DNA of 64,000 bases from Climacium dendroides (Eukaryota > Streptophyta > Bryopsida > Hypnales > Climaciaceae): positions 2,232,001 through 2,296,000 of the forward strand of contig OX467084.1 of the NCBI GenBank assembly GCA_950106755.1, in the 5' to 3' direction. A model generated the notes under the pieces. It did no database searches, was not told where the DNA came from, and saw nothing but the letters and a program-made list of their open reading frames with translations. This document shows, in pieces, positions 21,126-64,000 of the stretch. The position numbers and the translations under genes were made by a program. The stretch's first letter is position 1; every line of letters starts with the position of its first letter.

Positions 21126-23299
21126 TCAAATAGAATCACTTCAATACCAACGAATAAAAAACTGCCAACTCAACATGTTAGATCTGTAGCCACGTGGCAA
21201 ACTGCCATTGGAGGTGCTCCATATAATCACATCCTAATGAAGTTCCACATCAGCATAGGATGAAAAAAAATGGTCTTGTCCCAAATGACTGCCTTGTCCG
21301 TAATTACTTGTCCTAAATGACTCTGAGCCCCAAATCCAATTTTAGTCATTCTATTGACATTAGTGTCCTAAATGACTGGTTACGCAGTTATAAACAGTAG
21401 TCATTGATAGCCTGTTTTCTATTAGTGCGTCCACTTCATCTTCTGGTGAATATTCCACTAGATTCACCATGAAGCTCTCCTATCTTGGTGTTGGAGTTGG
21501 TGTTGTTTGTTTTATATGCACAAAACTTTCCGGATGGATCCGAGCCAGATTCCTCAAGACTCCTATCCGTTGAACCAGATTGGTACGGGTCGAAAGAGGA
21601 GATGTCTTGAAAGTTGTTTGTAAGGGCCAAACACTTAGTGGATCAAAAACTTTTGTCTGTACTGAAACTAATTTCAAGGTCAGTTCTTTGACTGATCCGA
21701 GTGGCATCTTCTTCCTTTTTTTTGAAATCTGTATTGTACTTGAAGAAGGATTTTCAGATTGATCTTTCTGTGGTAAGGGCAAAGAGATGGGAGCCTATTG
21801 GATTGGAGTCGGCTGGATCAGAACCTACTGTGTCGAAGCTTGCAACCTTGGAAACATGGTGGCAGGTACTTCCAAAAAAATTGAAAAATCTATGATTTTG
21901 TCATGATCCAGGTTTCCCAACAATTGACGCATCTCCTTCACTGCCACCTTCAACCGGCTTAGAAATCAACTAGGATTGTTACCACCTTCGTTTTTGTAAC
22001 GCGACCTTCAGCGAGAAACTAGACGTTGAAGAGTTCGGCTCTCAACATGATGTCCTCTGGATATGTGAGTAATCCCTTTAGGTTCCGGACTAGATCAAGA
22101 GCTTCTGTCTCTCATTGTCTTGTAGTATCCATCTCCCTTTCCGTTGAAGTCATTTGGGATCTGAGGTTATCTTGTTCTTTCTCTAGTTTCCGGATCTACT
22201 CCTTCCATTTGTACAAAACATCCAGTTTTGGTCTTCGCTTGATTTCTTCAATGATGCGATCCGGCTCGATGCCTCCCAATGCCTCGTAGACATTGAAAAC
22301 GATTGCCGCCATTCCGTCATGCGCCTCCTTGGCTTGACGCATCCACTGGATTCCAGCCTCGAAAGGATCCGGATCCTCCACCTGAGCCTGAAGTTGGTTG
22401 AGCTCCTCCCCTTCTAACGCCAACAACTTCCTGTGTGAGGCTAGATCCATGCATAGACTTCCTTTGATTCTTTTGTCGCTCGGCAAAATCTTCCTTCACC
22501 TCCAGAACGTCTTCCTCCTCTTCAATTCCGACTGCAGATGTTCTGACTTGTATTCCTTCATGAGTCTGTACTTTAGAATCATCACTCTAGTTTTGTACCA
22601 TCTCCGGATTGCTCAACACCTCATGGTGGTAAAGATGGAATAGGTAACGGCTAATCAAGCTAGGCTTCCTCCTCGAGACATTGTCCGCCAGTTTCACCAC
22701 TATTGTTCCGATCACTTGACCCCAATTTACTACTTCGTCTTCCAAAGTTCCAAAGATTGTATTGGCCACAGTGATTGTGACTCAGGTGGGCTTATCGGGA
22801 TACAGGAGTGGAATCAAGAATTCTAGCACATATCTATGTCTACCATCTTTATAGTCACTAATGGCATACCCCTCTTTTGAGTGGGCCAGGTTGCAGAACT
22901 TCTTGTTGGCGTACTTATCCACCCAGGAGGCAAATCTAGATCTGTCTTTTGTAAATCCGTAGACCTCCGCCCACATATTCGTGGTCTTCGACCCCTCACC
23001 GTCAACTCATACTAATTCGGAATTCCTTCGATGAGTTCTTGAATCATCTCATTATTTTTGAGATTCCATGGCCTCCATATAAGTTCTAGGCATCCCATTC
23101 TAATAAGGTCCTTATCTAATTGTTTCCGGGTGGCTGAGTTGGAAGGGATAGTCAGAGCGACCATCCGTATTGTGACTATAGGTTTACGAAATCTGATAGG
23201 TCGATCCATGACGGAAACTTCTACTCTGGTGCAAACGGCACCGACCTTACCTTTCTCTTCCTAGCACAATCCCTATCTCACCATTCTTTCACTCAAAAG

Positions 23300-24334: not shown

Positions 24335-24614
24335 TGTCGCAACATAAATTTTTGGTTTTGATTAGCTTATCTAGAATTCAGAGCGAAAACTAGTAAAGTG
24401 GAATTGGAACTGAGTACAAGTGGTAGGGAAATCGGATATATACACGCGAAAAATGAAATAGTGGGTAGATTGGATTCCATTCAGTTGGAAATTTCAAATT
24501 GGTCGGGATTGGAAACCCATCCGAAATTAGGGTAGATACCAGATTAGGGTTGGACCGGATGTCAAGCCGTCAAACCGGAATATAGTCATTATGACCACGG
24601 CGGAGTCCTGGGAC

Positions 24615-24622
24615 TATTTAAA
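24615..24622 (+). promoter_or_regulatory. First TATA box of type-Z LTR, ahead of its ORF
   Basis: TATTTAAA in the context ggactatttaaag. The complete type-Z LTR has TATATAAA at the same place (37585-37592), and the ORF-less copy has tatataac at 31190-31197. Confidence 0.55.
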
Positions 24623-24829
24623 GACCAACTCTGCTAGTTTTACCCCTTTCATTTCCTCGTGAGATTGGGCGCTCTTCATGTTGTTTACAGCATTTGGTAC
24701 CCTCGTGTCAGGATAGTGTGATTCAGTAGAATTCTAGTGATTCCAGTTGAGATCGGAGAGAGAAGTAAGGAACGGGACATGCGGCTAGGAGCGGGTGAGG
24801 TAGAATCGGTGAGGAAATCTGTGTGAGAG

Positions 24830-26493
24830 GTGATCCACCCCATGCCGCTGCTACGTCGGAAGAAAACGGGGTCGTTAGGATCCGGTCTGGTCGAGGTGAA
24901 ACTCCGGAAGATATTTCCGGCGATTCCCTCAGACGACCAGGAGAAGGACCAATTCATAGAAGACTTAGCTTCTATGGGTTGCCTGGGGTTCATTGAAAAA
25001 CCTTGGGGATTCCGGGAGGAGAGAATGGTGAAGGAACTTTTGGGCAAATTGTCTAATGAATTCGATAACACCTTGAGAGGGAATCCGTCCCTTTGGACTG
25101 AAGAGGTCTGGAGAGGAGTGTATGATTTCCGGGTAGGGGGTCTTGGGATGGCTGGCCGGAAGGATGAATTCATCCGGGGGAAGTTCCATGGTGTTCCCAA
25201 CCCTAAGGACGGATATGTAGTGGACGATTGCATAATCGACCGACACCGTCGTCTTTTGAGATTTCTCATTCCGATCCTTCATCCGGAGAAACCGACGAGG
25301 GTGACAATCACCTTAGGGAATACCATCTTCGGTTCCCTGAGCGGAACCCGGAACGTGAATTGGGCACGGATCCTTTTTGATCTGGTAACCTAGCTCATCG
25401 GGAGGGTAGGGAAGAGTAGGGCTACACCCATATGCCTGTACTTGTACCACCTGTACCACAACCATCAGCTCCTGACGGTTGATGAGGAGAAGGAGTGGAA
25501 GGCTCAGGGAGCTCTTTTAAAGTATGGCGAATTGGAAGAAGACGATGAAGTGGAATCGGTTCCGGATTCAGATCCGGAAACAAAAGAGGAGGAGGAGGAG
25601 GTAATGCCGCCGATCAAGCGACAGAAGACAACTCCTCCCCATGGGCGAGGGACACCTCCAAGACATGGCCCGTCAACCCCAGAGGAGAAACGGAAGGGTG
25701 TCATGGAGGAAGAAGTAGATCCACGGGATCCATTCAATAATTTGATTGGCATTCTTTCTAGTGTCTGAGCGGATTGGGAGGTGAAGCATCTGACCCTGCA
25801 AGCGATCAGAAGATTGGTGGATGCGCCGCTAGACAGCCAGCTACCATCGAAGGTAGCCGACTGTATCACCAATCCGGTTGAGTACCGGAGGCAGACGAAA
25901 GAATAATCCAACTGCAGACAAAGGCGGATACCCTGAAGGCAAAAAATCTCGTCCTAAAAAAGATGCAGCCGCCACGTTGGAGATAGCAGAGGAAATACGA
26001 CGGGTAGCGAATCAAGTGAAGGATGTTCTTGGAGTACCCGGGGCGGCCACCACCAAGGCCAAGCTATTCGACGACGAAGTCCATAAGGAGAAGAAGCTAT
26101 CCGGTGCTAGGATAGTAAGGATTCTCACGGACTACGCGGAATGGGTTGAGACGGCACTAAAGGAGGTGCGGATTTCAGCGGATCGGATTGAAGAGAGCAG
26201 TCGGAAGCTGATAGGAGCTAAGGAGGTCCCTCTGTCGGAACTCTCACTACCGGAAGAGTTTCCGGATGTGACAGTTGCTGAAGAGGAGAAGAATAAAACT
26301 CCCAAGCCCAAGATGACTACACCGGCATCTAAATTAACAAACACCCTAGAATCCGCCATCGACCTAGAATCCACATCCGATTTTGGTCAGGCCGATCTAG
26401 TTCCGAAACCTGTGGATGGGGAACGGAACCAGAACCTGACTGAAATCTTTGAGGGGATAGAAGCCGAGCTGAAGAGTCCTACCTTAGGGTTAG
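24830..26493 (+). pseudogene. LTR-encoded ORF, type-Z copy
   Basis: The plus-strand frame opens near 24842 (MPLLRRKKTGS) and carries the conserved N-terminal block. This comprises SMGCLGFIEKPWGFREERMV, LSNEFDNTLRGNPSLWTEEV, VYDFRVGGLGMAGRKDEF, NPKDGYVVDDCIIDRHRRLL, then RFLIPILHPEKPTRVTITL and NTIFGSLSG. A TAG at 25391-25393 and a TGA near 25766 interrupt it, and a frameshift near 25900 moves it to the frame that ends at 26493. The second part has GVPGAATTKAKLFDDEVHKE, ARIVRILTDYAEWVE and an acidic tail. The type-Y LTR was inserted a few codons before the original stop. The domain resembles the putative plant transposon protein family found in some plant retroelements. That match is from memory of the pattern. 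Confidence 0.7.
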
Positions 26494-29400
26494 TGTCATA
26501 GCACAAGGAAGCACAAATCCTACCCTTAGGTGTTAAATTGATGTAAAGTACCTTAGATGACTCGTGTATCGTTCCCACAGGATTTCAACGTTAGTTTCCT
26601 CAAGATATCCGGAACAGGATTCGGAAAACACCAAACCCAAACAAAACCAGATCTAAATATTTGCAACATGAAACTCTCTCAATACTCTTTCCTCTCCATA
26701 CTCCAATTCCCTTACGTCCACTCCAAGTCTTCCACCAGTAATCGAACAAGGAGGATTGTCATAATCCTGTGCTTCTCTCTATTCGGATCGACTTAGACAG
26801 ATGCGGAACTGGAAAGAGGATTTCTATCCGATTGCAGTAACTCACAAAATATTAGTTTTACCTCTACCAAGAGGGTTCCGCTCTTTGATTTTAGGAAGGG
26901 AACGTAAACCCTACCCTTCAAACGTGTTTAGAGTGAAATGAAGATCCACTTAGAATAACAACAACAAATATAAAAAAGAAATAGGAAATAATTACTTCCT
27001 TACAACTAATCCGGATGTTGATCCAGACTAGCAGGTCACTCAGGAAACCCCTATTATCCTCCTAGTACTACAACGACAGACCTATCCGGACAGAATTCTA
27101 AAAGCATGATCCGGCACCCGATAACTGAGAGATCCTAACTACCTTCCTGTTCCTCTCTTCCGGATCCAGCAGGACCTCATCAGACATCGGCTAGCATTCG
27201 TTCTCCCTCCTGAAGAATTCACCCAACCTAAGAATGGCTATCCTACTCAGAAGACTCCCAAGGAACTTCAGCAACTAAAATACCCTCTCAGTACACAAAG
27301 TTTTCCTTAACCAAATCCTCAAAGCTCTCAAAATTAGATCCTGGACAGAATCCGGGGGCTACTTGTCTTCCTCCACACCTGCAAACCAGCTACCTGCACT
27401 AAACAATGGTTCTAGCATTGCATGGCATACCAACACAGAACTTAGCCTTTTCAGGCCAACACTTATAAAGTGGAAATCTGAAATCAATTCGCAAAGTGTT
27501 GAAAAACACAAATAAGAAAACACCCGGGGCTTCAAACTAACTTCCACCCCCTAAATACACATTCCAGGGAACCCTAAAGGTCCCAAGGAATAAAACTAAA
27601 GGATAGGAGAATGAGAGGTGTCATTCCTTATCCTTCTAAGTTGACTTTCCTACCAACCCCATCCGATCCGCAAAATGTGGATCTCAAATCCTAAAAATCC
27701 GGAAAGTACAGTCCAAGTGCATGCACCTGAAAAGCACCTCCCAAGCTACTTCCTACCTACCAAAAACTTGGGTTTTTGGTTGACCATGCTAGGGTCGCTT
27801 CCCAGAAACTTCCTAACTACTTTCCTATCTATTTCCTAGCCTTCTTTGGAGAAGGTTCCTCTAACTTTGTTGCCCCCTTTCTAGCTGGCTGTTTCCTACT
27901 GGCTGACGGTTTTCCACTCAAGGGCGGCTTCCCCTTAGACGGTGTTGAAGTTTTCCCTTTGAACTCTGTTGGTGAGATTTGCTCGGGATCCGATTCCTCT
28001 TCTGATCCGGTGTCCTTTTCCGAATCCTCTTTTCCAGATTTCGACAGACTTTGCTCCTGCTCGGATTGGCTTGGAGATTCATCCTCTGCAGATTGTTGAC
28101 TCCTTAGAGGCATTTCTCTTCCTCTGACGGAAGTAACCTTCTTCACAGTCTTCTTGGCGGTTGAGGGTTGAGAGCCTTTACTCTGTGGTGTGCCTAAGTT
28201 GGATTCCGACTTCCGAATTCGAGTCTTCGATCCGGATCCGTGCACTGATCCTTCTTTCCTCCCCTCCATACTCTTAGACGTTGGTGTCAACTCCTCCTCC
28301 TGTCTTTCCTGCTTGGCTGGCGTCTTTGTTGGAGTCTTTGTGGGCGCATCCTTCTTGGTTGGCTCCATCTCTTCATCTATCCTCTTTATTCCGGATTCCA
28401 GAAACTGTTCTGCTTGGTGAAGAACATCTCGGACTTCAAACATGAACTTCTCCATCTCTTCGGAATACTCTGCCAAAACTAAGACAGCCTTATTTGCGGC
28501 TTCCTTCCCTTCTCAATTTGCCGTTGGAGATTCGCATTCCTCTCAGTCAACTCCTTGATGCGGGTCTCCCACTTCCGGTTTTCAATATCTCGGAGCAACC
28601 CTTCTACTTTCTCCGCGAGCTCTGACACGTTGATCCCTCCAAGTAGTCTACATACATTCCTCATTGCTCCTCTCTCCGTGTCAAACTCCTCCCGGACTCT
28701 CCCTAAGTCCGAAATGATCCTCCCCAAAGTATCCTCTCCCAGAACTTCCGGTTCCGGCGAGGCTTTCCCCTTTCCTCTGGATCCCTTCTTTCTCTCTTCT
28801 TCCTCTTCCTCTCGGGGTGAAGTAAGATTAAGTTTCACTAGGGTGGCTGCGGCCTTGTACATGGTCTTCTCTGAAGTTTTCAGAGTACCTAGGGAGTCAT
28901 ACAAGTGAAAGAGGAATGGTCCAATGGGGGTGGCCTTTGCATTTCTTAGGGCGTTCACCATCTTCCCTATCAGATCTTTCACTATTCCTCCCCAAAACAC
29001 TTTCCTTTCCCCACTCAACGCTCCGAAGATCGTATTGGCCCAAGTTACCGTGACCTGGTTTGGCCGTTCCGGATACAGAATCGTTACTACAAATTCTAAC
29101 ATCCTCCTCTCTCTTGCCACCTTGCAATTTGCTACTGTGTAACCATCCTTAGGGTGAGGAGGATTAGAGAATTTACCTTCCGCGAACTTGTGTACCCGCG
29201 AAGCCATCCCTTCTCCAGGTCGAGGAAAGTCGTAGACCCTCTTCCAGATGTCCTCAGTCCACTTTCCGGGCAGAGCTCGGACGGTCTTGATCCATTCGTT
29301 CGACTGCTTATTCATCAACTCCCGGACCATTTCCTCGCTCTTCAAGCTCCATGGTCGGCAGAGGAATCCCACACACCCGAGTTGGCCCAGATCCTCCTCC

Positions 29401-30122
29401 AACTGCTTCCTCTCTCCGTCATCCTTCGGAATCACTGGACAGATGCTTTTGATCTTGAAAGGAGATGACTCGCTTGCTTCTGCCTTCACCATGGTTGCAA
29501 AACTCTCCAAAACACTCACCACTCAAAACCTCCTGTCTTTTCTTGCCACAGCTCCCGGTCAATCCTCTTCCTCTCCACGACAGGATCCGGAAGGTAAGAT
29601 TACCCAATCCTCTCACACCTCTAAAGACAGAACTTGCTCTGAGAGCGCTCCCAAATCACAAAGACACAATGAGGTTTGAGGAACCAAACCCCTACGTATC
29701 CTTTCCTAGCAGTCACAGTCGTTGGGAAAGTAGCCGTTTCCGCAATCATCACAGAGGAATCTAGCCGTTAAACGGTCCTCCGTGATATATGGGATTACCG
29801 TTAGATCCGGGATTTCCTTTTCCCGTCCCGATAATCTTCCGGTAGCGTGCGGATGCGTTTGCTTCCGGCCCCGGTATATTTTTCCGATCCCTGTTTGGTT
29901 CCTTGGATGCGGATCCGGTTCCGGATCTTTAGGAAAACAGGAAACTTACAATATCTTTCTTAACCAAATTATCTATCTACTACTAATCCAATAGTGAGGT
30001 AGAGTTAATATTGGTAATATAATTAGTTTACCATTTTGTAAATAAATTTTTTTTACCAATGTCAACTCTTTACTTCTAAATTCTATATAACCAACCTCAT
30101 CCTCTCATTTTGGTCTACGACA
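26494..30122 (-). mobile_element. Type-Y solo LTR, 3.63 kb, with its own ORF
   Basis: On the plus strand the segment starts TGTCATAGCACAAGG and ends GGTCTACGACA, with a perfect 5-bp target duplication GTTAG (26489-26493 and 30123-30127). It reads as a minus-strand LTR carrying the LTR-encoded ORF (29522-27829). There is no primer site, polypurine tract, gag or pol, so it is a solo LTR. Its 3' edge resembles the type-Z edge (ttgtgctatgaca against ctgtgctgcgaca), which makes Y and Z sister types. Confidence 0.82.
27829..29522 (-). pseudogene. LTR-encoded ORF, type-Y copy, one frameshift
   Basis: This is among the best preserved copies. The minus frame from 29522 to 28479 has 347 codons with no stop. 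It contains MVSVLESFATMV, a Cys-Val-Gly-Phe block (LGQLGCVGFLCRPWSLKSEE), DIWKRVYDFPRPGEGMASRV, NPPHPKDGYTVANCKVARE, MLEFVVTILYPERPNQVTVT, WANTIFGALSGERKVFWGG and PFLFHLYDSLGTLKTSE. A coiled coil follows, ending with ERNANLQRQIEKGRK. A frameshift near 28490 passes to a second frame ending at 27829. That part has LAEYSEEMEKFMFEVRDVLH, long Lys-, Glu- and Ser-rich disordered stretches and a basic tail with KKARK. The function is unknown. A role like a capsid-associated, nucleic-acid-binding or nuclear factor is only a guess. Confidence 0.75.
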
Positions 30123-30283
30123 GTTAGGATTGTAGATAGTAAGAGTTTTTATACATACTAGAGGAGTTAGATCGGAACCGGATTCTATCCGGTGGTTGGT
30201 TGGTAAATAGGATCGGAAGTTTAGCCGGAAAATACGGCTGGATTCCGTGATACTTTTTGCCTTTTTGCGCTTTTGTGGTGTTG

Positions 30284-30291
30284 TATATAAA
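30284..30291 (+). promoter_or_regulatory. Second TATA box of the split type-Z LTR
   Basis: TATATAAA follows a run of ctttttgcgcttttg-type sequence downstream of the ORF. The same arrangement is at 39221-39230 (complete copy) and 31694-31700 (ORF-less copy), so it is conserved between copies. Confidence 0.55.
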
Positions 30292-30918
30292 TCTACCCTG
30301 AGAAGGGAAGAGAGAGAAAAAAAGTCTTCTTTTGCAAAATTCTTTGGTGTCACCTGTTTTTGCTGTTGTATATCTGTACCATGAGAGTTGTGTGCCTGCT
30401 GTATAACTGGAAGTGAAGAGAGCAAAGAGAGAAGCTAAGAAGTTGACATCTTCTCCCCTTGGTGTATTTTATTCTTTAAGTTTCAGTGCATGTGAGTAGG
30501 TATTAAAAGAGTTGGGAGTGCGCTTCAGTTCCTCAACGTGTCTAGAGTTCGAGATTCCGGGTGAGAAAACCGTTGTTAGGCTAGGCGGATAGGGAGGGAT
30601 TCCCTACTTGCGCTAGAACTTCTGGGTGGGAAATCCGGTTGAGTGTCCGATCTTCTGTGAGGTCTTGCTGCCATACTTGGTAAATGGAATAGCTCTAGTA
30701 CATATGGGAATGGACGGGTTCACTTGCAACCACCTAACTTCGCACGGATAGAAGAGAGTGCCCAAGGTCGTTGTAGTATCAGAGGATCGTACGGGCGGGT
30801 CTCTATGTGACCTGCAATCCGGATTAATATCCAAGTTGTTGTGAGAGATCAAACCGAATCCGTAGTAGGTAGGAGAATAGAAGATAGAAGAGTGGGATCT
30901 TCCGCCACTATAAGTTAC

Positions 30919-32992: not shown

Positions 32993-35900
32993 TGTCGTAC
33001 GCGTAGTTAGCCGTAAGTATCCTTACAATGACAATTGGTTGCAAGATGACACGAATTATCGTTCCAGGGAACTTCTAGTAAGATATTGATTGAGTTAGAA
33101 GCATCCGGATTGGGATTATTCACTTAATCCCCCTTCTTTTACTTCCCTACTTTATTCCGGAAACTTAGTACATTCCGGATTCCATTCCGGATCCGGATAC
33201 CTCCGGAACTGGGTTCCGTCTCTCTTCCGTCACTGGTTTTTGTTGCCTCAATTTTATCCTCAGAGGGTCCGCCCTTGATCTAGAAGGGGGTGGGGACTCA
33301 CCACTTGTACAATTATCCTCTCTATACTCTAAATCTACTAAACAACATACCCAAGACAACACCGCTGTAGGAGGAGGGAGGAGTATTCTTTCACAGTTTC
33401 CAGATTGGCCGATCCGGAATCAGGTCACACAAAGAAATTCTCACACCTCTCTTTACTACAATGACGGATCCGAATTCATAGATCCAAAAGAATAGAGTCT
33501 CAAGGGGAAGACAATGTACCAAGGGGGAGGTTGGTAGACTTTCCGGAGTAGCGGGAGTTCCTTTCCTTTGGCGGTTGCTTATCTCCGCACAGAACCCTCT
33601 TGGTTCTGGACTCGCTGGGCCCTCTACCCTCTTACCCAGATTGCCGTTCCGGCAATTTAAAAGCACGTCACACTTACACTTCCTTACTCTGTCCGCATTC
33701 CTCCCACTCAGCTCAACACCAAGAGATCAGTAGCCCAAGATCCGGATTCCTCCTCTCCCTCCCTTCTCTTTCTCTAGTACAAGGTTACACCCACATGTAT
33801 ACACTCAGCCAGAAGACCCTGTCTAAGCAAAAGTGCAGCTAGAGGTATCCTAGCTGACTTAGATTAAGCAAAGAAAATTGTAATACATACGTGAAAGCAC
33901 TAAAACGGAATGGAATAGAATGGAATGGCAGACAACTAACTTGCCTGCCCTTAAAATACTAATACAAAAATCCAAAGTCAACTCCTAAAAGCCTGAAAAC
34001 GAAACCCGGAAATCCAGGCAACCAATCACTAAAAACCCCGGGATATCCGGAAAGATTACTAACTACCGTCCGAGATTGTCGAATTTTCTAATTATCCGCC
34101 TTAGATTCCGGAAATCGGGTCCATGCTCGGAAACCCGTTCCGGATTCTATACTTCTTCTCCTACGAATTCTAATGTTTTGGCTTCCGTCCTTTCCTTGAA
34201 CGGCTCCCCGCTTGGCTGGTAGGCGTCCCCTTCGTATTCTTTGTTGGCGTGGTTTTTGCTGTGGCCCGAGTCTGGATATGGCGCGTTGCGGGAGACGGAT
34301 CGCTGTCGTCTTCAGTTCCGGAAGTGGAGTGGGCACTCTCCTCCTCAGAATCTTGGATGACTTGAACTTCCTTCTCCTTCTCTGGTGTTGTATCCTCCAA
34401 TGTTGCGGATTCGCTTCTTTTCTCCGGTGTGGTCTCTTGCATGTGCACAAATCCTTTCGGATTAGTCCGAGCCAAATTGGTCATTCCACCGATCTGGTTG
34501 ATGAGATCTCCCCTGACTTGTTGTCTCGGAACCTTGAATGATCCGGTCATCAAGTTCGGCATTGTTTGGGACTTGGGAACTTCCGGGGTTGAGAATTTGG
34601 ATGGCACCGGAACCGATTTCGCGCTAGACTCAAGTTTCGGTTCCGAGGTTGGCCTCAAATTCAACTCCGTCATCCGTATTTTGCTGGCGGAAGGCTCAGC
34701 TGGTGTGAGTATCCCCTTCAAACCCTCCATCCGGGTTGCATGATCTGCCACTAGTTTCCCTGGGGTACCTGAGACAAAAGGAAGTTCCGAAAAGGTGGAG
34801 AAATCCATCGCATGGTTTGGGTCGATAGCCGCTAGTAACTACTGGATCTCCTTCAAAACTCGCTAAATCCTCGCGGTGAAGTCTACGATGATGGTAACTA
34901 CCTTGGTTCCGGTAATGTGGCCTTCCGATATCATCTTCGAGTCAAACAATGTAGCTTTTGTGATGATGTCGGCCTTGATGTTGACTGCTCCGGATAGATT
35001 CTTGACCAGAGTGAGAGCCTCTTTCTCTTTCTCTTTTGCAACTGCCATTTCCCCTTCCGCCCAATTCACTCGGGCCTGGAGTTGGTTTCGTTCCGCCTCC
35101 AACTCCTGAATCCGCTCCTCCCTCTTCTTCAGATCCTCCGGTTTGGGCAGTCGCTTGACAGCTTCCACGATTTCATCCGGATCCACCTTCAAAACTTCCG
35201 CAATATCTATCACCAAATCCGATAGACCGTCGTGGAGTACCTTGGCTTCACGTATCCACTCGAGCCCCGCATTGAAAAATGCGGATTCCGTTTCCATTTC
35301 AGGTCCCTTGCTGGACTCCCCCCTCTCCATCGTCTGTGGCTTGATTCGCGACTCCGGATCGGTTGACTTCCTCTTCTTGGTCCTCGGATCGGTCAGACGT
35401 TCCTCGGGAAGTTCCTCCGGATCAGACTCGACCGGATCTTCCGCTTCCTCCCCGGAAAGTCCGTACGACATGATCGCCTTTCCGGTGTCATACTGGATCA
35501 CTTCAGCTGCACTCAAAAGTTCCTGTTGATGGTACAGATGAAATAAGTAGGTGCTAACTGGACTCGCCTTTGCTCGGGTCACGTGATCCGCTAATTTAGC
35601 CACTATCCCGGCTATGACCCTACCCTAGTGCACTACTCGGTTCTCCATAGCCCCAAAGATAGTATTGGCCACCGTAATGGTAACCCGTGTTGGCTTTTCC
35701 GGATACAAGATTGGAATCAGAAACTCTAGTATCCGCCTATGTCTCTCGTCCTTGCATTCACTGATAGCGAATTCGTCCTTAGGGTTTGCAGACCTAGTGA
35801 ACTTCCCAGCTACAAAACGGTCCGTCCTCGATGCTAAACCGTTCCCACTCTTCCGGAACTAATAGACGTCCGCCCAGATGTCCTCGGTCCACGCGACTGG

Positions 35901-36547
35901 CCGCCCTCTCAAGGTGAGCTCATACTGATTCGGAACACCGTGAAGTAGCTCTTGAATCATCTCTTCACTCTTGAGGTTCCATGGTCGGTGTAGTAGACCG
36001 ACACATCCTAACTTAGTTAAGTCCTCCTCTAACTACTTGTGTAGTTCCGAGTTATCCGGAATGGCCGGAGAGATAACCCAGGCAGATACCGCTACCTTCC
36101 GTACTGGTCCGGATGCCATAAGATCTAAGTGAGAACGAGAAAAAGTAGTTCTACTTTAGTCGCTAACTCACCACTCTTTCTCTCAACTACTCACACAAAT
36201 AGTCTCAGGAACACAGAACAGGAAAGTGAAGAGGAAAACCCTAGGAAGACAGCTTAAATACTAAACCGTCTTTTTACGGGCTTAAGGACAACGCTACAGG
36301 TCCATTGTATTAACGGTATCCTACTTCCGTAGCTACGAGACCTATACGGTAGGTTCCTGTGTTCCGGGTGAGTCCGGATTCTGGATTCGGACAAGTTCCG
36401 ATTACGGGTTGTGCCGGAACGCTTATTTCCTAATTCAAGCTATTTGGTCCAAAAATCACGCTCTAACTATAAATTTTTTGATTTTTTTCTATTTTTCGCA
36501 CCTACTTCTTGTATTATTGATCCGTTTCCAAATTCCGGATTCCCACA
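32993..36547 (-). repeat. Type-X LTR at the 3' side (B-like), 3,555 bp
   Basis: The plus strand starts TGTCGTACGCGTAG and ends GGATTCCCACA (TG...CA). Its left two kilobases share many specific bases with the LTR at 62591 and not with that at 58382, for example gaattctaatgttttggc, and gagattgtcgaatt. It carries the LTR-encoded ORF at 36119-34170. Confidence 0.85.
34170..36119 (-). pseudogene. LTR-encoded ORF, type-X copy in the 3' LTR (649 codons)
   Basis: It starts MASGPVRKVAVSAW and keeps one frame for 1,950 bp, the same length as the copy at 59566-61515, but has five TAG stops: codon 29, in VYxFRK, in VVHxGR, in ARIxRV and in IQxLLA. Domains in order: an N-terminal block to about residue 230 with VTITVANTIFGAMENR, a Lys/Arg cluster TKKRKS near 256, a coiled coil near 325-375 and the segment TGTKVVTIIVDFTARI. 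Then come a Pro/Ser/Thr-rich stretch, an acidic Ser-rich stretch, and a basic end RSRKGRKPKH. Most changes leave the rest of the frame intact, which points to selection in the recent past. Confidence 0.75.
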
Positions 36548-36562
36548 TTACCCCTTTTTCAA
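36548..36562 (-). promoter_or_regulatory. Polypurine tract of type-X element
   Basis: On the minus strand tgaaaaaggggtaa directly precedes the LTR start TGTGGGAATCC. This purine run is where plus-strand synthesis is primed in LTR retrotransposons. Confidence 0.7.
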
Positions 36563-37584
36563 CTCTGAGAGTCCCCGCGAACATCTTCATCTTTGTCTTG
36601 GGAATCCGACTCCTGCGCGTACGTCTTGACCCGGGATTTATTCACCCTTGTGTCCATCCAAACCCCTTAAAGATCTTCCAGTTGAATGGATCCATTAGAG
36701 AATAACTGTCGCACTCTATATGGGCCCATCCATCTGGTGTGAAGTTTTCCTGGAAGAATCCGGTAACGGCTATCATATAATAGAACTAACTCCCCTTCCT
36801 TGATCCCGTGGTTGGTTGGTAATTTCTTGTTATGATCTGCCTTTCTTTTTTCCTGTACTCTTTTCGTGTGATCGAGGGCCACCAATCTTGCCTCCTCCAA
36901 ATCTTCGATAGCCATCACCCGGATGTCCGGATCGCTAGTCCGGATAGCGTTCCGGGTCGACATCACTCGGTGTGATTCCACCTCTAATTCAATCCCATGG
37001 GTGGTCTCCTGTCCAAATACAAGAAAGAATGGACTTCTCCCAGTGGTAGTCTTCTGTGAGGTGTTGTACGCATGGACTGCCGATGGAAGTTTCAAATCCC
37101 AATCCGTCTTGTGCTTAGAGATGGTTTTATTCAAAACCTTTTCTACTACTCCATTGGCTCGTTCCGTCAAACCGTTTGCCCTTGGGTTATAAGGAGTGGT
37201 CTTCCGGTGGGTGATCAGATATCTCTTGGTAATATTCTGAATGGTATCATTCAGGAAATGGAGTCCTCGATCACTGACTAACTCTAGTGGGTGCCCAAAC
37301 TGTGACAACTCATATTTTTTATTTTTCTTTGTTTACCTTTTTGAGTGGAACAGAAATTAGAAATAGGTATCTGGATTCATCGAAAGGGAGAAAGATAAAT
37401 CCAAAAATAGTCACAAGAAGATCTTACGGAACTAATCCGGTTTTAGGTAGAAGCGGATCAGATTAGATTTCCAACCGGATTGTATTTCCAACCGGATTCT
37501 CCTTGACCAGATTGGAGAGAACCGGATGTCAAGAACCGAACCGGATATCCGACTGGTCATAAAGATAGTCCAGGGCGTCAGGAC

Positions 37585-39887: not shown

Positions 39888-42822
39888 AAAAACTAAACCG
39901 GGTACGGAAGGGTGGACTGGACCGGATCCACCTAGGAGGGTACTTAGGACCGAAAGTTGCGGAGTCCAGAATTGAGAAGTTAGTCCAAAGACCGTGGAAC
40001 TAGTAAAACCGGAAGTAGGATATAGTCCGGTCGTAGTCTTCCGGTTGGTTTTGGACGTTCTGGTTTTCAGAGGTAGAACCGTAAAGTAGAATTGAAGGGT
40101 TTAATTGGGTTTATCTCCTTGTTAGAGTTAGCTACTTCACAGGATCTCGTAGGTTCGATCTTTACGGTCATTTTGTTATGCTCTAGGGTGATTTTTGTGA
40201 GTATAATAGGGAAATTGCTTACTCTGTGCTGCGACACAAACCTCATCAGAATTTCCGTGAACAGGAACGATGCTGCAGTCTGGGCGGAATTATTTCGGGT
40301 AGCTCGTGCTTCCACCCATTTGGTGGCATAATCCGTCGCCCAGATGATATACTTCTTTCTTCTAGCCGTAACTGGAGAAATGGGACCTATGAAATCTATT
40401 CCCCATTTCTCAAATGGGGCAATAGGCATGATTGGAACGAGTGGCCAATGGTTCCGGAAGGAAGGAGCCCCTATTCGTTGACATTGGTCACAGCTCCCCA
40501 CATGCTTCTTGACGTCCCGGATCAGATATGGCCACCAATATCCGGCTGCTCGGATCCGGTTCACGATGGTGATAGCTGCGAAATGTCCTCGAGAAGGTCC
40601 GGAATGCAAGGCTCGCATTATCTTCTTCTGGTCCTTTGTTTCCACGCATCGCCTTAGCTGATCATCCGCTCCCATTTTGAATAAGGTTCCCTTAATCAAT
40701 GAGTAAGGGCCAACCTTATGGTAGAATATGATTTTCTCCTCCCTATTTAACCCCTCCGGGTATCTTCCGTCTATAAGGAAATCTATGATGTCCTGGTAAT
40801 CCAATCGAGTTCTTTCATGTAGGTGGAACACAGATTCTTCCGGAATTTCCGAAAAGTCATCCGGGAATTCTGTGGAAATGTCTTCAAGTGAAGTCGGTCC
40901 CCTAATTCTAGAGAGGTAGTCCGCATTTGCATTTGACTTTCCGGATTTCACTTTTACTTCATAATTGAATTTTTGGAGCAATAACACCCATCTTGCTATT
41001 TTTCCGAAAAGGTCAGGTTTGTTTACCAGATACTTGAGTGAATCATGATCCGTGTGGAATATTACTCGATACCCAAGCAGGTAATGTCGGAACTTCTTAC
41101 ATGCATAGACCACTGCCAACACCTCCCGCTCCGTGGTGGTGTACTTCCTTTCCGCCAAGCTCATTTGTTTGTTGGAGTAGTAAATGGGGCATTCTCTCTG
41201 GTGACTGTCGTGTTGCCAGAGAATTGCTCCTAAACACCATCTGGAAGCGTCTAGGGTAACATGAAATTCCTTGGTCCAATCCGGTGAAGACAAAATAGGG
41301 GCCTTGACTAACGATGATTTCAAAGTCTCAAAAGCTTCTTGCCGTTCCGCATTCCACAAATACTCAGTATCCCTTTTTAGCAGTTTCGTAAGTGGAGTAG
41401 CTTTCCGGGCATATCCGTCTATAAATCTCCGATAATACCCTACACAACCAAGGAATCCTCGAATCTCTCGTACACAGGTTGGAGCAGAAAGGGTGAGTAT
41501 GGCTTTGACCTTGTCCAGGTCTACCTCTAACCCTTTCCGACTAACCACATGTCCTAAGAGGATTCCGGATTCCATTCCGAAAAAGCACTTTCCGGGGTGC
41601 AGTTTGAGATTTGTCTCCCTGCATCTCTGAAAGGTTTTCCGCAGGTATTCCAGGTGCGCGTCCTTGGAACTGTATATAGCAAAGTCATCGATGAATACCT
41701 CTAGGAAGTGGTGTAGAAAATCCTGGAAGATGTCCATCATGAGTCATTGGAAAGTTCCGGGGGCATTGCATAATCCGAAGGGCATCCGGGTGAATGCAAA
41801 GGTTCCCCATTCCGTCGTGAAGGTGGTCTTCAGCTGGTCTAATAACCGGATGAAAACCTGGTTGCATCCGGAGAAGCCATCGAGAAAGCTCTAACACTCA
41901 TTTCCGGAAACTTGATCAAGAATGATGTCCGTAAAAGGAAGCGGAAAGTAGTCTTTCTGGATTGCATCATTTAATTTCCGGAAGTCTTGGCATACCCGGA
42001 TCTTGATCTTTCCTCCTGGGCCTGGTTTCTTTGGAATGACAACAATGGGTGAAATCCATTCTGAGTTGAAGACAAGGTAAATAAACCCGGCTTCTAACAA
42101 GGCGTCAATTTCCTCCTTCACCATCAGAGAGTATCTTGGGTTTAACCGATGCTGTCGCTGGCGTACCGGAACCGCTCCTTCGATAAGGTCGATCCGGTGT
42201 TCTCCTAGTTCTGCTGGTATCCCACTGGGGTCGGAGGGTGCCCAAGCAAAGACATCGAGATAATCTTCTAGAAGCTTCTTGTATTTAGCTTTCTCCGGAG
42301 CAGACATTGCTTTGTTAACAAAGAAAGTCTTTCTTGTAGTAACACTCACCTCCTCATACTCCACTGGGCTTACTATAGGCTTCCTCCTTTCTGGTTCTGG
42401 TCCATCTTTCTCGTTCCGTAACTCGCTCCAGATGGATCCTTGATTTGTTCGACCCAGTCCTACCGTTGGAAGATTCTCTTTGTTGAGCTGTCGTTTGATC
42501 CATTCGTATGATAACGGAACGCTCATCTCTCCTAATGACCGATCTTCCGGTATTGTTGGTGTCGAGGTTTCTGTTTCTTCCGTCAAAATTTCCAGGATGG
42601 GTTCCGGAAACTCAAAATTTGGTTCCGTAACAGACGTGAAGTAACTAGTTACGGAATCAGAATTCTCCTGATCAGACCAGTCCGTAGTATATCCATCGGA
42701 TTCACTAGTCTCCCCCAAGTGATCAACATGTTTCCAAGGTATTCGTATGGCAGGTTTCCCCACCACGAATTCCTTGGCTCCCCAATCAACCAGCACTCTT
42801 GCTGCATATAACCATGGTCTTC

Positions 42823-43627
42823 CTAATAGCATGGGAAAGGCCTTCCCTTAGATACTCTGATGACTACATAATTTAGCAGATAAGTCTCTTTTCCGATCCG
42901 GGTTGGAATCCGGGCTAGCCTTCCTACTAGATACACTCTTGATTGATCTGCCATCCTCAAGACTTGGTCGGTTTCTTGGAATGTCATATACCCTAGATCA
43001 AAGGCGGTGTCTTCCAACATTAGGTTGACTCCCGATCCGCCATCAATTGGAACCCGGGTGACCGTGCATCCCCCTACTTCGACCTCCAATTTTGGCGCTC
43101 CAAAGTCTTCGATCTAGGAGAAGTTGACTGCGACTGATGGAAGTTTGAATCGCCTAGTTCTTTTCTTCGTCCAAGTGTCTCAGATCAATTTATGATAATT
43201 TGCATTATCATGGAGGAGTTGCCCAAAGGTGACACTAGCTTTCTGATCTTTGATATCTTGCACGATGTCGTACGTATCTAAGTTTGGTATCGGATTGATC
43301 AGAACCGGAACGTCCTCAAACGTAACCTTCTTCTTTCTGGGATCCGGAATCACACCGATATTATCTAGATTCTGTCGGACTTCCGAACTAATGTCAATGG
43401 GAATTGGAAGAGGTCTGACCCCTTTTTCTACTTCTACTGTGGGTCTAATAGGATCCGTTTCTTCCGAGTGATCAGAATCACTCGGATCGGATTCTGGAAT
43501 GGGAGTGCTCACCTGAGGCTTTTCTTTCCGTCTCTGTCTTCTAGTTCTATGCCTATTCCTTTGGTCTTTGGTGGAACTTCGAGTTGACACTCGATGAACG
43601 AGTCTTTCTAAAACTTTTGGAAGTTCC
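42823..43627 (-). pseudogene. Protease and adjoining gag-pol linker of copy A
   Basis: On the minus strand the frame enters from the CACTA insertion as VELPKVLERLVHRVSTRSS. It runs through a charged linker with ESDPSDSDHSEETDPIRP and reaches the retropepsin motif VPIDGGSGVNLML, where the Asp of the D-(S/T)-G-type site is the catalytic residue, followed by RMADQSRVYLVGRLARIPT. Two stops interrupt it, TGA at 43180-43182 after HKLI and TAG near 43117 after VNFS. A one-base frameshift near 42830 separates it from the RT part. Confidence 0.75.
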
Positions 43628-56611: not shown

Positions 56612-58227
56612 ACCTTTGGTTGTCATTTTTCCATATTCTCAATTTCGGCGGTGGATCCGTAATTGAGTCTGGTTTGGTCACAAGGTGGGACTTCTACATG
56701 TTTGTAAATAGTACGGATCTGTTGCGGCCTGGGACACTCATTCATTCCATGTCCATATTCTAAACAATTCTGGCATGGTAACGCTAGTGGGGCCCCTTGC
56801 CCCTGCCCTTTATGGGGACAGCTATTAGCATAATGTTGGGGACTTCCACACACGAAACAACACCTGGGTGGGAATCTAGAAGTAGAATAAGTACCTTGAC
56901 TAGATCCAGTCAGTGGATGCGTATGAAAATTGGTGCGGATCAACTATTGAGGTGCTTTCCCTCTTCTGTATCCGGTTTGGATCTGGAATACTGGATTCAC
57001 CGGATCTTCACACCCTTCCGGTTCCGGAAGTGTGTAGTACACTCCTTCTTCATCCACAAAATGGATCTGCTTCTGATGTCCCTGGGGGCATTCGCTTGCA
57101 TAATGACCGGATCTTCCACACCTTGTGCACCATACATTAGCTCGGGAAGTCGGTACAATCCGTCAGGGCATCCGATTATCAGCTAGATTGACCTTGATTG
57201 CCTCCAAAGATTCTTGGATGCTTTTCATAAGTTTCTTGGAATCGTCCTCCTCCACCTTCACCTTGACAATTCTTTTGTTAACCTTCTCGTTTTTACCTCG
57301 CGCCACTCGTCTGCTGCTAGAAGTCTCTGCCTCACTATCCGAACTGTCGGCGCTGTCGGATGATTCGTCCGATCCGGTTCCGGAACTCGAGGTTTTGGAA
57401 TCCGAATACCTCCCTCGTCGCTTCATCTTCTTCTCGTACTTTTTGCTCTTCCCTTTCTCTCGTTTCTCGCTCTTCTTGATGGATCGTCGCAGCGATTGAG
57501 CTGAGTTCTCGTAATTTTGGGTTGACTCCATGGCTTCTCTTAACGTTGCGGGTCGGGATTGTCGGATCTGAAAACCCATCTCCTCTAGAAAACCTGCCAC
57601 ATACCATTCCACTTGTATACTCAGGGCTACGTCCGTGGTTAGTTTTTTGATCAGGTCTTTCACCCTCTGACCGTACTTTCGGACCGACTCGTTAGGTCTC
57701 ATGGAGACTTTACTAAGTCTTCCCAAAGCTCTAGCTTCTCCTCCTACTTCTCTAAAGGTCTGCAGGAAGAGTTCTGTCAGATGGTCCTAGTTGTTCCGGG
57801 TACCTTCCGGAACATCCTGATACCATCTAAGGGCTTCACCTTTTAGTAGTCCCTGAAAAATTCTCTATCTGGAAGCGGCATCTTCTTGAATAGCTACAGT
57901 GGTAGCTTCAAATTCTCCCATCCAATCATCTACATCCTTACTGCCATCTCCCCGAAACCTACTGTAACGGAGACGTGTGGTGGTCACCACGCTATCTAGT
58001 TTGTCAGAGAATCGTTCCTCCTCAGAAGTAACTAGTTCCGCCTCTGGTTCCTCAACCGCTTCAGGACTTTGAGAACGTTCTGGAAGTACTTCCGGCCTAG
58101 GAGGAATTATAACCAGATCCTCTACAGACTATAACGCTGGTAACCTGTGCACCACTATTCGCCTATTTTCTTCCTCTTGACGTTCCGTCCGACGTAAAGC
58201 TGTGTTTCTTCTTTGAGGCCTACTCAT
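56612..58227 (-). pseudogene. gag of copy A, with three zinc knuckles and several stops
   Basis: Gag forms the particle and binds the element RNA. It starts MSRPQRRNTALRR at 58227. The core includes DDWMGEFEATTVA, GLLKGEALRWYQDV, FREVGGEARALGRLSKVSM, SVRKYGQRVKDLIKKL and WYVAGFLEEMGFQIRQSRPA, typical of retrotransposon gag. A Lys- and Ser-rich linker follows, then three CCHC knuckles: CTRCGRSGHYASEC, CFVCGSPQHYANSC and CQNCLEYGHGMNEC. TAG stops are at codons 33, 121 and 147. A TGA (57163-57165) and a TAG (56944-56946) lie between the core and the knuckles. After the third knuckle the frame reads into the CACTA element and continues at 43627. Confidence 0.82.
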
Positions 58228-58381: not shown

Positions 58382-61300
58382 TGTCGTACGCGCAGTTAGC
58401 CGTAAGTATCCTTACAACGACAAATGGTTGCAAGATGACACGAATTATCGTTCTAGGGAACTCTAGTATGATATCGATTGAATGAGAAGTATCCGGATTG
58501 TGACTACTCACTTAATCTCCCTTATTTCACTTCACTACCTTATTCCGGAAACTTAGTACATTCCGGATTCCGTTCCGGATCCGGACACACCCGGAACTAA
58601 GTTCCGTCTCTCTTCCGTCACTGGTTTTTGTTGCCTTTGTTTTACCCTCAGAGGGTCCGCCCTTGATCTAGAAAGGGGTGGGGACTCACCACTTGTACAA
58701 TTATCCTCTCTGTACTTTAAATCTACTAAACAACACACCCAAGACAACACAGTTGTAGGAGGAGGGAGGAGTATTCTCTCACAGTTTCCGGATTGGCCGA
58801 TCCGGAATCAGGTCACACAGAGCACTTTTCACACCTCTTTTACTACAACGACGGATCAGAACTTATAGACCCAAAAGAATAGAATCTCAAGGAGAAGACA
58901 ATTTACCAAGGGGGAGGTTGGCAGACTTTCCGAAGTAGCGGGAGATCCTTTCCTTTGGCGGTTGTTTAACTCCACACAGAACCCTCCTGGTTCCGGACTC
59001 GCACGGACCTCTACCCTCTATTCCGGATTGCCGTTCCGGCAGATTAAAAGCACGTTGCACTTACACTCCCTTACTTAGCTTTGCATTCCTTCTCACTAGC
59101 TCCACCCCCAGATGATCCGTAGCTCAAGATCTGGATTCCTTCTCTCCCTCCCTTCTCTTTCTCCAGTACCAGATCATACACCCATGCATACACTCAGCCC
59201 AAAAGACCCTGTCTAACCAAAAGTGCAGCTAAAGGTATCCTGGCTGACTTAGATTAAGAAAAGAAAATTGTAATACATACGTGAAAGCACAAAAATCTAA
59301 TGGAGTAGGATGGAATGGAATGACAAACAACTAACTTGCCTGCCTTTAAAATACTAACACAAAAACCCAAAGTCAACTCCTAAAAGCCTGAAAAGGAAAA
59401 CCCGGAAATCCAGGCCACCAATCCCTAAACCTCCCGAAATATCCGGAAAGATTGCTAACAGCCGTCCGAGATAACCGGATTTCCTTACTATCCGCCTAAA
59501 ATTCCGGAAATCAGGTCCAGGCTCAGAATTCCATTCCGGATCCTATACTTCTTCTCCTACCAATCCTAATGTCTTGGCTTCCGTCCTTTCCTTGAACGAC
59601 TCCTCGCTTGGCTGGTAGGCGTCCCCTTCGTGTTCTTGGCTGGCGTAGTTTTTGCTGTGGCCCGAGTCTGGATATGGTGCGTTGTTGGAGACGGATCGCT
59701 GTCGCCTTCGGTTCCGGAAGTGGAGTGGGCACTCTCCTCGTTAGAATCTTCAATGACTTGAACTTCCTTCTCTTTCTCTAGTGTTGTATCCTCCAATGTT
59801 GCGGGTTCGCTTCCTTTCTCCGGCGTGGTCTCTTACATGTGCACAAATCCTTTCGGATTAGTCCGAGCCGGATTGGTCATTCCACCGATCCGGTTGATGA
59901 GATCTCCCCTAACCTGCTGTCCCAGAACCTTGAATGATCCGGTCATCAAATTTGGCATTGTTTGTGCCTTGGGAACTTCCGGAGTTGAGAACTTAGATGG
60001 CACCGGAACCGTTTTCGCGCTAGACTCCGGTTCCGGTTCCGAGGCTGGCCTCAAATTCAACTCCGTCATCCGTATCTTACTAGCGGAAGGCTCGGCTGGT
60101 GTGAGTATCCCTCTCAGGCCCTCCATCCGGGTTGCTTGATCCGCCACTGGCTTCCCTGGGGTACCTGCGACAAAAGGAAGTTCCGGAAAGGTGGAGAAAT
60201 CCATCGCATGGTTTGGATCGATGGCCGCCAACAACTTCTGGATCTCCTTGAAAACTCGCTCTATTCTCGCAGTGAAGTCTACGAGGATGGTAACTACCTT
60301 GGTTCCGGTAATGTGGCCTTCTGATATCATCTTCGAGTCAAACAAGGCAACTTTCGTGATGATATTGGTTTTGATGTTGACTGCCCCGGTTAGATTCTTG
60401 ACCAGAACGAGAGCCTCCTTCTCTTTCTCCTTCGTAGCTACCATTTCCCCTTCCACCCAATTCACCCGGGTCTGGAGTAGGTTCCGTTCCGCCTCCAACT
60501 CCTGAATCCGCTCATCCTTCTTCTTCAGATCCTCTGGCTTGGGCAGTTGCTTGACAGCTTCCACGATCTGATCCGGATCCACCTTCAATACTTCCGCGGT
60601 ATCTATCACCAAATCCGACAACCCGTCGTGAAGTACTTTAGCTTCACGTATCCACTCGAGCCCCGCATTGAAAAATGCAGATTCTGTTTCCATCTCAGGT
60701 CCCTTGCTGGACTCCCCCCTCTCCATTGTTGGTGGCTTGATTCTCGATCCCGGATCAGTTGACTTTCTCTTCTTGGTCCTTGGATCGGTCAGACGTTCCT
60801 CGGGAAGTTCCTCCGGTCCAGACTCGACCGGATCTTCCGCTTCCTCCCCGAAAAGTCCGTATGATAGGAGCGTCTTTCCGGTGTCATACTGAATTATTTC
60901 TGCCGCACTCAAAAGTTCCTGTTGATGGTATAGATGAAACAAATACGTGCTAACTAGACTCGCCTTAGCTCGTGTCACATGATCCACTAATTTAGCCACT
61001 ATCCCGGCTATGACCCTACCCCAGTGCACTACCCGGTTCTCCATAGCCCCAAAGATAGTATTGGCCACCGTAATGGTAACCCGCGTTGGCTTTTCCAGAT
61101 ATAAGATCGGAATCAGAAACTCTAGGATCCGCCTATGTCTCTCGTCTTTACACTCGCTGATAGCAAATCCGTCCTTAGGGTTTATAGACCCGGTGAACTT
61201 CCCAGCTACAAAACGGTCCGTCCTCGATGCTAACCCATTCCCACTCTTCCGGAACTGATAGACGTCCGCCCAGATGTCCTCGGTCCACGCGACTGGTCAT

Positions 61301-61945
61301 CCTCTCAAAGTACGCTCATACTGATTCGGAACATCGTGAAGTAGCTCTTGAATCATCTCCTCACTCTTGAGGTTCCATAGTCGGTGTAGTAAACCGACAC
61401 ATCCTAACCTAGTCAAGTCCTCCTCTAACTACTTGTGTAGTTCCGAGCTATCCGGAATGGCCGGAGAGATAACCCGGGCAGATACCGCTGTCTTCCGTAC
61501 TGGTCCGGATGCCATAAGATCTAAGTGAGAACGAAGGGAAAGTAGTTCTACCTCAGTCGCTAACTCACCACTCTTTCTCTCAACTACTCACACAAACAGT
61601 CTCGGATACACAGAACAGAAAAGTGAAGAGGAAACCCTAGGAAGACGGCTTAAGTACTAAACTGTCTCTCTACGGTCTTCAGGACAATGGCTACAGGTCC
61701 GTTGTATCAACGGTATCCTACTTCCGTAGCTACGGGACCTATACGGTAGGTTCCTGTGTTCCGGATGAGTCCGGATTCCAGATCCGGATAAGTTCCGGTT
61801 ACGGGTTGTGCCGGAACGCTTATTTCCTAATTCAAGTTATTTGGTCCAAAAATCACACTCTAACTATAATTTTTTTTAATTTTTTTTAATTTTTTGCACC
61901 TACTTCTTGTATTATTGATCCGTTTCCGGATTCCGGATTCCCACA
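58382..61945 (-). repeat. Type-X 5' LTR of copy A, 3,564 bp
   Basis: Plus-strand edges are TGTCGTACGCGCAG and GGATTCCCACA. It is adjacent to the primer site and therefore the 5' LTR. It carries the LTR-encoded ORF at 61515-59566 and the tRNA-Asp-like motif at 58852-58841 (minus). Beyond 61945 the sequence is the gag of another copy. Confidence 0.88.
59566..61515 (-). pseudogene. LTR-encoded ORF, type-X copy in the 5' LTR (649 codons)
   Basis: It starts MASGPVRKTAVSARVIS and keeps a single frame to TKNTKGTPTSQARSR-like text and RSRKGRKPRH, with three stops: TAG at codon 29 (61429-61431, in LHKxLEED), a TGA in TLRGxPVAW and a TAA in FVHMxETTP. From 61068 to 59833 there are 411 open codons. Layout: N-terminal globular block (1 to about 230) with DRFVAGKFTGSINPKDGF, RILEFLIPILYLEKPTRVTI and NTIFGAMENRVVHWGR, then STYLFHLYHQQELLSAAEI. 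After that come a Lys/Arg cluster near 256, a coiled coil near 325-375, TGTKVVTILVDFTARIERVF near 395-420, a Pro-rich linker, an acidic stretch and a basic tail. The pattern of the N-terminal block recalls the putative plant transposon protein domain. The function is unknown. Confidence 0.78.
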
Positions 61946-62590: not shown

Positions 62591-64000
62591 TGTCGTACGC
62601 GTAGTTAGCCGTAAATATCCTTACAACGACAAATGGTTGCAAGATGACACGAATTATCATTCCAGGGAACTCTAGTATGATATCGATTGAATTAGAAGTA
62701 TCCGGATCGTAACTACTCATTTAGTCCCCCTCTTTCACTTCCCTACTTTATTCCGGAAACTTAGTACATTCCGGATTCCGTTCCGGAACTGGGTTCCGTC
62801 TCTCTTCCGTCACTGGTTTTTGTTGCCTCAATTTTATCCTTAGAGGGTCCGCCCTTGATCTAGAAAGGGGTGGGGACTCACCACTTGTGCAATTATTCTC
62901 TCTATACTCTAAATCTACTAAACAACACACCCAAGACAACACAGCTGTAAGAGGAGGGAGAAGTATCCTCTCACAGTTTCCGGATTGGCCGATCCGGAAT
63001 CAAGTCACACAAAGAAATTCTCACACCTCTCTTTACTACAATGACGGATCCGAACTCATAGATCCAAAGGAATAGAGTCTCAAGGGGAAGACAATTTACC
63101 AAGGGGGAGGTTGGTAGATTTTCCGGAGTAGCGAGAGTTCTTTTCCTTTGGCGGTTGCTTATCTCCGCACAGAACCCTCCTGGTTCTGGACTCGCAGGGC
63201 CCTCTACCCTCTTATCCGGATTGCCGTTCCGGCAGATTAAAAACACTTCACACTTACACTCCTTTACTCGGCTTGCAATCCTTCTCACTAGCTCCACCCC
63301 CAGCTGATCCGTAGCTCAAGATCCGGATTCCTCCTCTCCCTCCTTTCTCTTTCCCTAGTACAAGGTTACACACACATGCATACACTCAGCCAAAAGACCC
63401 TGTCTAAGCAAAAGTGCAGCTAGAGGTATCCTAGCTAACTTAGATTAAGCAAAGAAAATTATAATACATACGTGAAAGCACTAAAATCAAATGGAGTAGG
63501 ATGGAATGACGGACAACTAACTTGCCTGCCCTTAAAATACTAACACAAAAATCCAAAGTCAACTCCTAAAAGCCTGAAAAGGAAATCCAGGCAACCAATC
63601 ACTAAAAACCCCGGGATATCCGGAAAGATTACTAACTACCGTTCGAGATTGTCGAATTTCCTAATTATCCGCCTTAGATTCCGGAAACCGAATCCATGCT
63701 CGGAAACCCGTTCCGGATTCTATACTTCTTCTCCTACGAATTCTAATGTTTTGGCTTCCGTCCTTTCCTTGAACGGCTCCCCGCTTGGCTGGTAGGCGTC
63801 TCCTTCGTATTCGTTGCTGGCGTGGTTTTTGCTATGGCCCGAGTCTGGATATGGCGCGTTGTTGGAGACGGATCACTGTCGTCTTCGGTTCCGGAAGTGG
63901 AGTGGGCACTCTCCTCCTCAGAATCTTCGATGACTTGAACTTCCTTCTCCTTCTCTGGTGTTGTATCCTCCAATGTTGCGGGTTCGCTTCTTTTCTCCGG
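62591..64000 (-). repeat. Type-X 5' LTR of copy B, cut by the window edge
   Basis: It starts TGTCGTACGCGTAG on the plus strand. About 1.4 kb of the expected 3.56 kb is in view, including the tRNA-Asp-like motif (63034-63045, one mismatch) and the 3' end of the LTR-encoded ORF. Confidence 0.85.
63743..64000 (-). CDS. LTR-encoded ORF of copy B, C-terminal part only
   Basis: The last 85 or so codons of the LTR-encoded protein are open: an acidic part with DSEEESAHSTSGTEDDSDPS and the basic end RSRKGRKPKH. The rest lies beyond the window. Confidence 0.75.
   Translation of the reverse strand, partial: PEKRSEPATLEDTTPEKEKEVQVIEDSEEESAHSTSGTEDDSDPSPTTRHIQTRAIAKTTPATNTKETPTSQAGSRSRKGRKPKH

Follow-up and report, generated by a model that had tools for sequence, protein, structure and literature searches.

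A protein gene inside the long terminal repeats of Ty3 retrotransposons in Climacium dendroides

The DNA analysed here, referred to as the window, is a 64,000-nucleotide piece of the Climacium dendroides genome (contig OX467084.1), and the same genome (412.6 Mb, 123 contigs) was searched for related sequences. The genome gave 51 matches to light-harvesting genes, which marks it as that of a photosynthetic plant. The window carries retrotransposon sequences with three types of long terminal repeat (LTR), designated X, Y and Z, and the subject of this study is an open reading frame (ORF) located inside these LTRs. The X-type features are as follows.

58382..61945, minus strand: X-type LTR, the 5' LTR of copy A; matches 32993-36547, with TG...CA ends and an adjoining primer site
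59566..61515, minus strand: LTR ORF in the 5' LTR of copy A; 649 codons plus stop, ATG at 61515, stop at 59566-59568
32993..36547, minus strand: X-type LTR, the 3' LTR of copy A; polypurine tract before it
34170..36119, minus strand: LTR ORF in the 3' LTR of copy A
62591..64000, minus strand: partial X-type LTR of copy B, the third copy; the last 85 ORF codons at 63746-64000

Aligned over 3568 columns, the two full LTRs of copy A (58382-61945 and 32993-36547) are 89.9% alike, the LTR size being 3.56 kb. On the minus strand the X LTR begins with TGTGGGAATC and ends with TACGACA, followed by a primer site of the TGGTGCCACTGCCGGGGA type. The ORF starts 431 bases into the LTR, runs in the sense of gag-pol and terminates within the LTR. 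In-frame stops are present at codons 29, 73 and 561 of the 5' LTR copy (59566-61515) and at codons 29, 87, 165, 419 and 427 of the 3' LTR copy (34170-36119), with no frameshift in either; the stop at codon 29, TAG (61431-61429 and 36035-36033), is common to both window copies and to the X copy L002. Seven places encoding the ORF were detected in the window by tblastn, at 21507-23188(-), 24890-26171(+), 28824-29444(-), 34173-36119(-), 37959-38746(+), 59569-61515(-) and 63746-64000(-), in agreement with the count in an earlier note on this DNA. That note had also assigned the same ORF to both LTRs of copy A and the partial LTR of copy B, and related ORFs to the Y and Z LTRs and to a putative decayed LTR at 17770. 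A sense ORF was indeed found in all three X LTRs, and the Y and Z relatives lie in LTRs; the full window copies are broken, however, the LTRs of copy A are not the pair of one insertion, and the position found for the decayed ORF is 21507-23188.

In other parts of the genome natural copies with an intact frame are present, 6 of 11 aligned X copies being without an in-frame stop. The element L039/L040 has two LTRs 98.6% alike, a CGACT duplication, a primer site following the first LTR, a polypurine tract ahead of the second and an open ORF in both LTRs. With the order gag, protease, reverse transcriptase (RT), RNase H and integrase between the LTRs and its 5-base duplication, it belongs to the Ty3 (gypsy) group, even though some of its pol frames are broken. 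The second complete element, L052/L053, was located through the spacing of LTR motifs, not through the protein, and carries a TATTC duplication and an intact ORF in both LTRs. In these two complete X elements, or four LTRs, the coding sequence lies fully inside the LTR and in both LTRs, and the protein of about 650 residues proposed in the earlier note is thus represented by a sense ORF of 649 codons. No ORF of this kind was found in the internal region within the element regions examined.

The ORF also outlives the element as a solo LTR, as had been proposed. Seven X loci (L002-L008, the top protein matches) were inspected for LTR ends, and both ends were identified in five, while two were without one end. 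Four of the five are solo LTRs with perfect 5-base duplications, and the fifth retains 4 of 5 bases. On contigs C1-C3, 18 of 23 X ORFs were preceded, with the expected spacing, by the exact LTR-start motif; another two ORFs lay outside the range of the listed starts. A genome-wide count allowing up to one mismatch gave 752 occurrences of the X LTR start (reversed control, 1); with up to two mismatches allowed, the polypurine-LTR junction gave 85 (control, 0), of which 75 were read as X-type. As a rough estimate, assuming equal numbers of 5' and 3' LTRs and given the differing mismatch limits, solo or truncated copies make up about four fifths of the X LTRs.

The divergence between paired LTRs is uneven. 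L052/L053 (C3:72880-85960) shows 3 differences in 3129 bases covering the ORF and the 3' part, compared with 16 in the 421 bases before the ORF, a pattern that suggests a local conversion tract. L054/L055 (C3:28665720-28684235) diverges by 0.8% in the ORF and by 5.2% behind it, and stops at codons 82 and 420 are common to both of its LTRs.

Y and Z LTRs also contain the ORF, with related Ty3 pol sequences adjoining. Their copies in the window, and two further relatives of the ORF, are the following.

26494..30122, minus strand: Y-type solo LTR of 3629 bases, with the GTTAG duplication on both sides; broken ORF starting at 29492
24335..26493, plus strand: first part of a Z-type LTR, ORF start near 24839
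30123..30537, plus strand: continuation of the Z-type LTR past the Y insertion; 30537 is the extent followed, not an established LTR end
21507..23188, minus strand: decayed ORF relative, about 57% identity over the first 209 residues
37959..38746, plus strand: relic of a Z-like ORF, within the insertion splitting the integrase of copy A

In the region 24335-30537 one ORF-bearing LTR (Y, solo) is nested in another (Z). The Y LTR start was found 193 times (control, 0), and on contigs C1-C35 its exact motif preceded 54 of 73 Y ORFs with the expected spacing; five of the 19 others were examined, and four of these have the start in the same position but with a mismatch, the fifth being truncated. 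Solo LTRs with the ORF are present for both X and Y, and at least three diverged Ty3 families possess a sense-strand LTR gene encoding a protein of about 630-650 residues, the length being known for X and Y.

The mode of evolution of the frame was examined by the pairwise ratio of nonsynonymous to synonymous substitution rates (dN/dS, Nei-Gojobori method). The ORFs of the window 5' and 3' LTRs gave a dN/dS of 0.19, while the other two frames of the same pair gave 1.03 and 1.20, supporting the proposal that the frames survive better than under random decay. L039 compared with the window copies gave 0.19 and 0.14, L003 compared with L039 0.16, Y pairs 0.26-0.47 and the Z pair 0.27; the X comparisons span 0.14-0.19. 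Between X, Y and Z the synonymous sites are saturated, with dN of 0.56-0.79. The element's own genes showed comparable values, 0.26 for gag, 0.15 for RNase H and 0.34 for a piece of integrase. The two window LTRs, which were not chosen by protein similarity, differ by 12 gaps, every one of them outside the ORF (about 7e-5 if evenly spread). Variants were also grouped by the number of copies sharing them and set against a simulated neutral expectation. For Y, the ratio was 0.41 for variants in four or more copies, 0.65 for those in two or three and 0.89 for those in one; the corresponding values were 0.33, 0.38 and 1.06 for residues 1-255, and 0.44 (none of 400 simulations gave so low a value), 0.85 and 0.80 for residues 271-630, mostly outside the stretch used for ranking copies. 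X copies, 9 of 11 taken from the protein-similarity list, gave 0.22, 0.32 and 0.53. Judged from these comparisons, the ORF is under element-level purifying selection during element spread, with a constraint like that of gag and RNase H. We consider it probable that this is an LTR gene selected by the element, with some role in element propagation, a judgement that does not extend to its molecular activity.

Several observations weigh against this interpretation. Both full copies of the X ORF in the window are broken, with 3 and 5 stops. The X and Y copies were mostly picked by protein similarity, which lowers dN, and Y variants in two or three copies are near neutral in residues 271-630. In three LTR pairs, the third being L054/L055 with its duplication unverified, 19 nonsynonymous and 18 synonymous ORF differences were counted (p 0.087 versus neutral), a result that neither shows nor excludes a relaxation of selection after insertion. 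The shared stops, at codon 29 in three X copies and at codons 82 and 420 in L054/L055, indicate that broken-ORF copies moved, or else conversion or recurrent mutation. The ORF may work in trans, or a single round may be possible without it. To the same side belongs a second TATA-like site behind the X ORF, which makes a U3 position of the gene possible.

The protein has relatives in the public protein collection, 18 by one sequence and at least 72 by profile (about 8000 candidates scored in each search), at 28-50% identity over the alignment and none with a precomputed Pfam domain. The N-terminal 225 residues gave a confident predicted structure (predicted local distance difference test 89.8, predicted template modelling score 0.86), for which no match was obtained in a PDB search and none in Pfam. 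The weaker whole-protein model has two further helices, a long one at 327-379 and another at 404-431, and behind them a tail of low confidence whose end is basic, a feature also observed in P0003, P0004, P0006, P0007 and Y. A Pfam scan detected no known retroelement domain among the families listed. The putative plant transposon protein domain suggested in the earlier note was not detected in the Pfam families listed: PF20167 was listed neither for the single protein (Pfam, E up to 1) nor among the 25 families listed of 35 for 45 members, and PF04195 (Transposase_28) was likewise listed neither for the single protein nor among those 25.

As to expression, in 6 of 8 Z loci the ORF is preceded, at a distance of about 225 bases, by a TATA-like motif, TATTTAAAG, and a transcription start upstream of the gene is therefore suggested. 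A pyrimidine-rich stretch is located about 110 bases before the X ORF, while no clear promoter motif was seen before the Y ORF. These motifs suggest a promoter ahead of the ORF, so that the LTR would be a gene cassette. The arrangement has a counterpart in mouse mammary tumour virus (MMTV), of which the sag gene encodes a protein within the LTR (U3) and thus stands at both ends. By analogy, the ORF here could lie in U3, with a spliced or internal transcript expressing it from the 3' LTR and genomic RNA starting behind it. In X the ORF is followed after about 700 bases by the TATA-like TCTATAAG, in agreement with such an arrangement, but the TATTTAAAG that precedes the ORF in most Z loci (6 of 8) speaks against it, and we consider it possible but less likely than not. 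It concerns expression only and is compatible with a selected LTR gene.

Other explanations of the ORF are less probable. An old captured gene or separate mobile unit, fixed in the LTR with little role in the element cycle, would fit the apparent movement of elements with ORF stops and the lack of a known retroelement domain among the Pfam families listed; its constraint equals that of gag and pol, however, and it was kept across X, Y and Z, between which synonymous sites are saturated, making this origin improbable. Still less probable is that the ORF became a host gene, solo LTR copies being retained for the plant. Many solo LTR copies exist, some with an intact ORF, but only 7 of 29 Y copies are intact and single-copy Y variants are near neutral (0.80-1.06), which points to an element gene, not a host gene. 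A chance open frame, due to compositional bias and shared recent descent, can practically be dismissed: although the copies share descent and their open frames are not independent, it is contradicted by the off-frame controls, the gap distribution and the database relatives at 28-50% identity.

For the selected LTR gene we can also propose a mode of action. Each LTR would form a cassette of promoter, gene and terminator, the ORF being the first frame of an LTR-started RNA. Judging from its basic tail and predicted coiled coil, the protein may enter the nucleus, self-associate through the latter and target element DNA or RNA in trans. The most likely option, though a tentative one, is an activator or anti-silencing factor of LTR transcription; an export factor for genomic RNA is unlikely by comparison. 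Reverse transcription would copy the gene to both ends in each round, and solo LTRs would leave additional copies. In the complete form of this proposal, every LTR, including hundreds of solos, would be a self-contained cassette, transcribed from a start before the ORF to an end after it, with the ORF in an exceptionally long R region. The solos would be expressed from scattered sites and supply a nuclear factor that acts in trans, its fold not yet solved, and that keeps the family active against silencing; taken as a whole, this is rather doubtful.

Among known systems, MMTV sag is alike in being a protein gene internal to the LTR and present at both ends. It belongs to an animal retrovirus and lies in U3, whereas the ORF here is probably downstream of the promoter, and the likeness drawn is one of arrangement. 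VANC, an anti-silencing protein of the Arabidopsis VANDAL DNA transposons, is a possible analogue of the proposed action, that is, an element protein acting in trans on DNA of its own family. CERV of the nematode element Cer1 reportedly mediates nuclear export of genomic RNA and could be an analogue of the RNA-export alternative. In primer-site and RT motifs the elements presumably resemble the OTA lineage (Athila/Tat). According to excerpts of PMC7264820, plant accessory ORFs (aORFs) such as Grande gene23, RIRE2 and Retand ORF4 belong to the internal region, where most are found after pol and before the 3' LTR, many of them in antisense, and nuclear localisation is reported for the Grande product. 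These and the LTR ORF are alike as accessory ORFs of unassigned function kept in plant Ty3 families, but the LTR ORF is in sense and sits in the LTR, outside the internal region by which aORFs are defined there. It also differs from the Retand Transposase_28 (PF04195) type, which is antisense; the Retand ORFs are placed between pol and the 3' LTR in the part of PMC11963269 available. Retrosat2, RIRE3 and RIRE8 are plant Ty3 elements with LTRs of more than 3 kb and an extra sense ORF0, which, according to excerpts of PMC3485330, is upstream of the gag-pol ORF and not in the LTR, unlike the ORF here. A survey of plant elements describes extra ORFs in OTA elements, none placed in LTRs in the text covered (PMC6317226). 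No earlier plant LTR-encoded gene was found in the literature searched, most subscription papers being outside it, and a search for phrases on LTR-located ORFs brought up a single paper, on MMTV.

LTRs usually count as non-coding DNA with a regulatory role, and solo LTRs as what is left of an element; a conserved LTR gene changes both views. Annotation is affected, because LTR gene copies can resemble host genes, and so is the view of solo LTRs, each of which can still hold the gene. It becomes testable whether element remnants help their relatives in trans. The location is unusual for a gene, which may give these elements a new means of self-control.

The internal part of copy A has the order gag, protease-RT, RNase H and integrase between the LTRs, interrupted by inserted DNA.

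56950..58128, minus strand: gag of copy A; 91% to that of L039, in which Retrotrans_gag and zf-CCHC are matched
41492..43289, minus strand: protease-RT of copy A
40237..41292, minus strand: RNase H of copy A, with the first part of its integrase
36548..37300, minus strand: integrase end and internal 3' end of copy A

Copy A lacks a target-site duplication common to its two LTRs (TAGTT versus CCTCC). Their origin as a pair from one insertion was rejected because of this difference and the selected pattern of their differences (dN/dS 0.19), unlike post-insertion mutation; they come instead from different insertions, forming a recombinant pair. Unequal recombination is reported to give intact elements without duplications (excerpts of PMC7251063). 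A CACTA-like insertion at 43290-56875, with Transposase_21 at 49088-49960 and DUF4216 at 45969-46955, divides gag of copy A from pol. A tandem array is present at 44386-45464 (unit of 289-290 bases, about 3.7 copies, 94-97% alike). A frame for a DDE_1 superfamily endonuclease at 727-1809 probably represents another DNA transposon.
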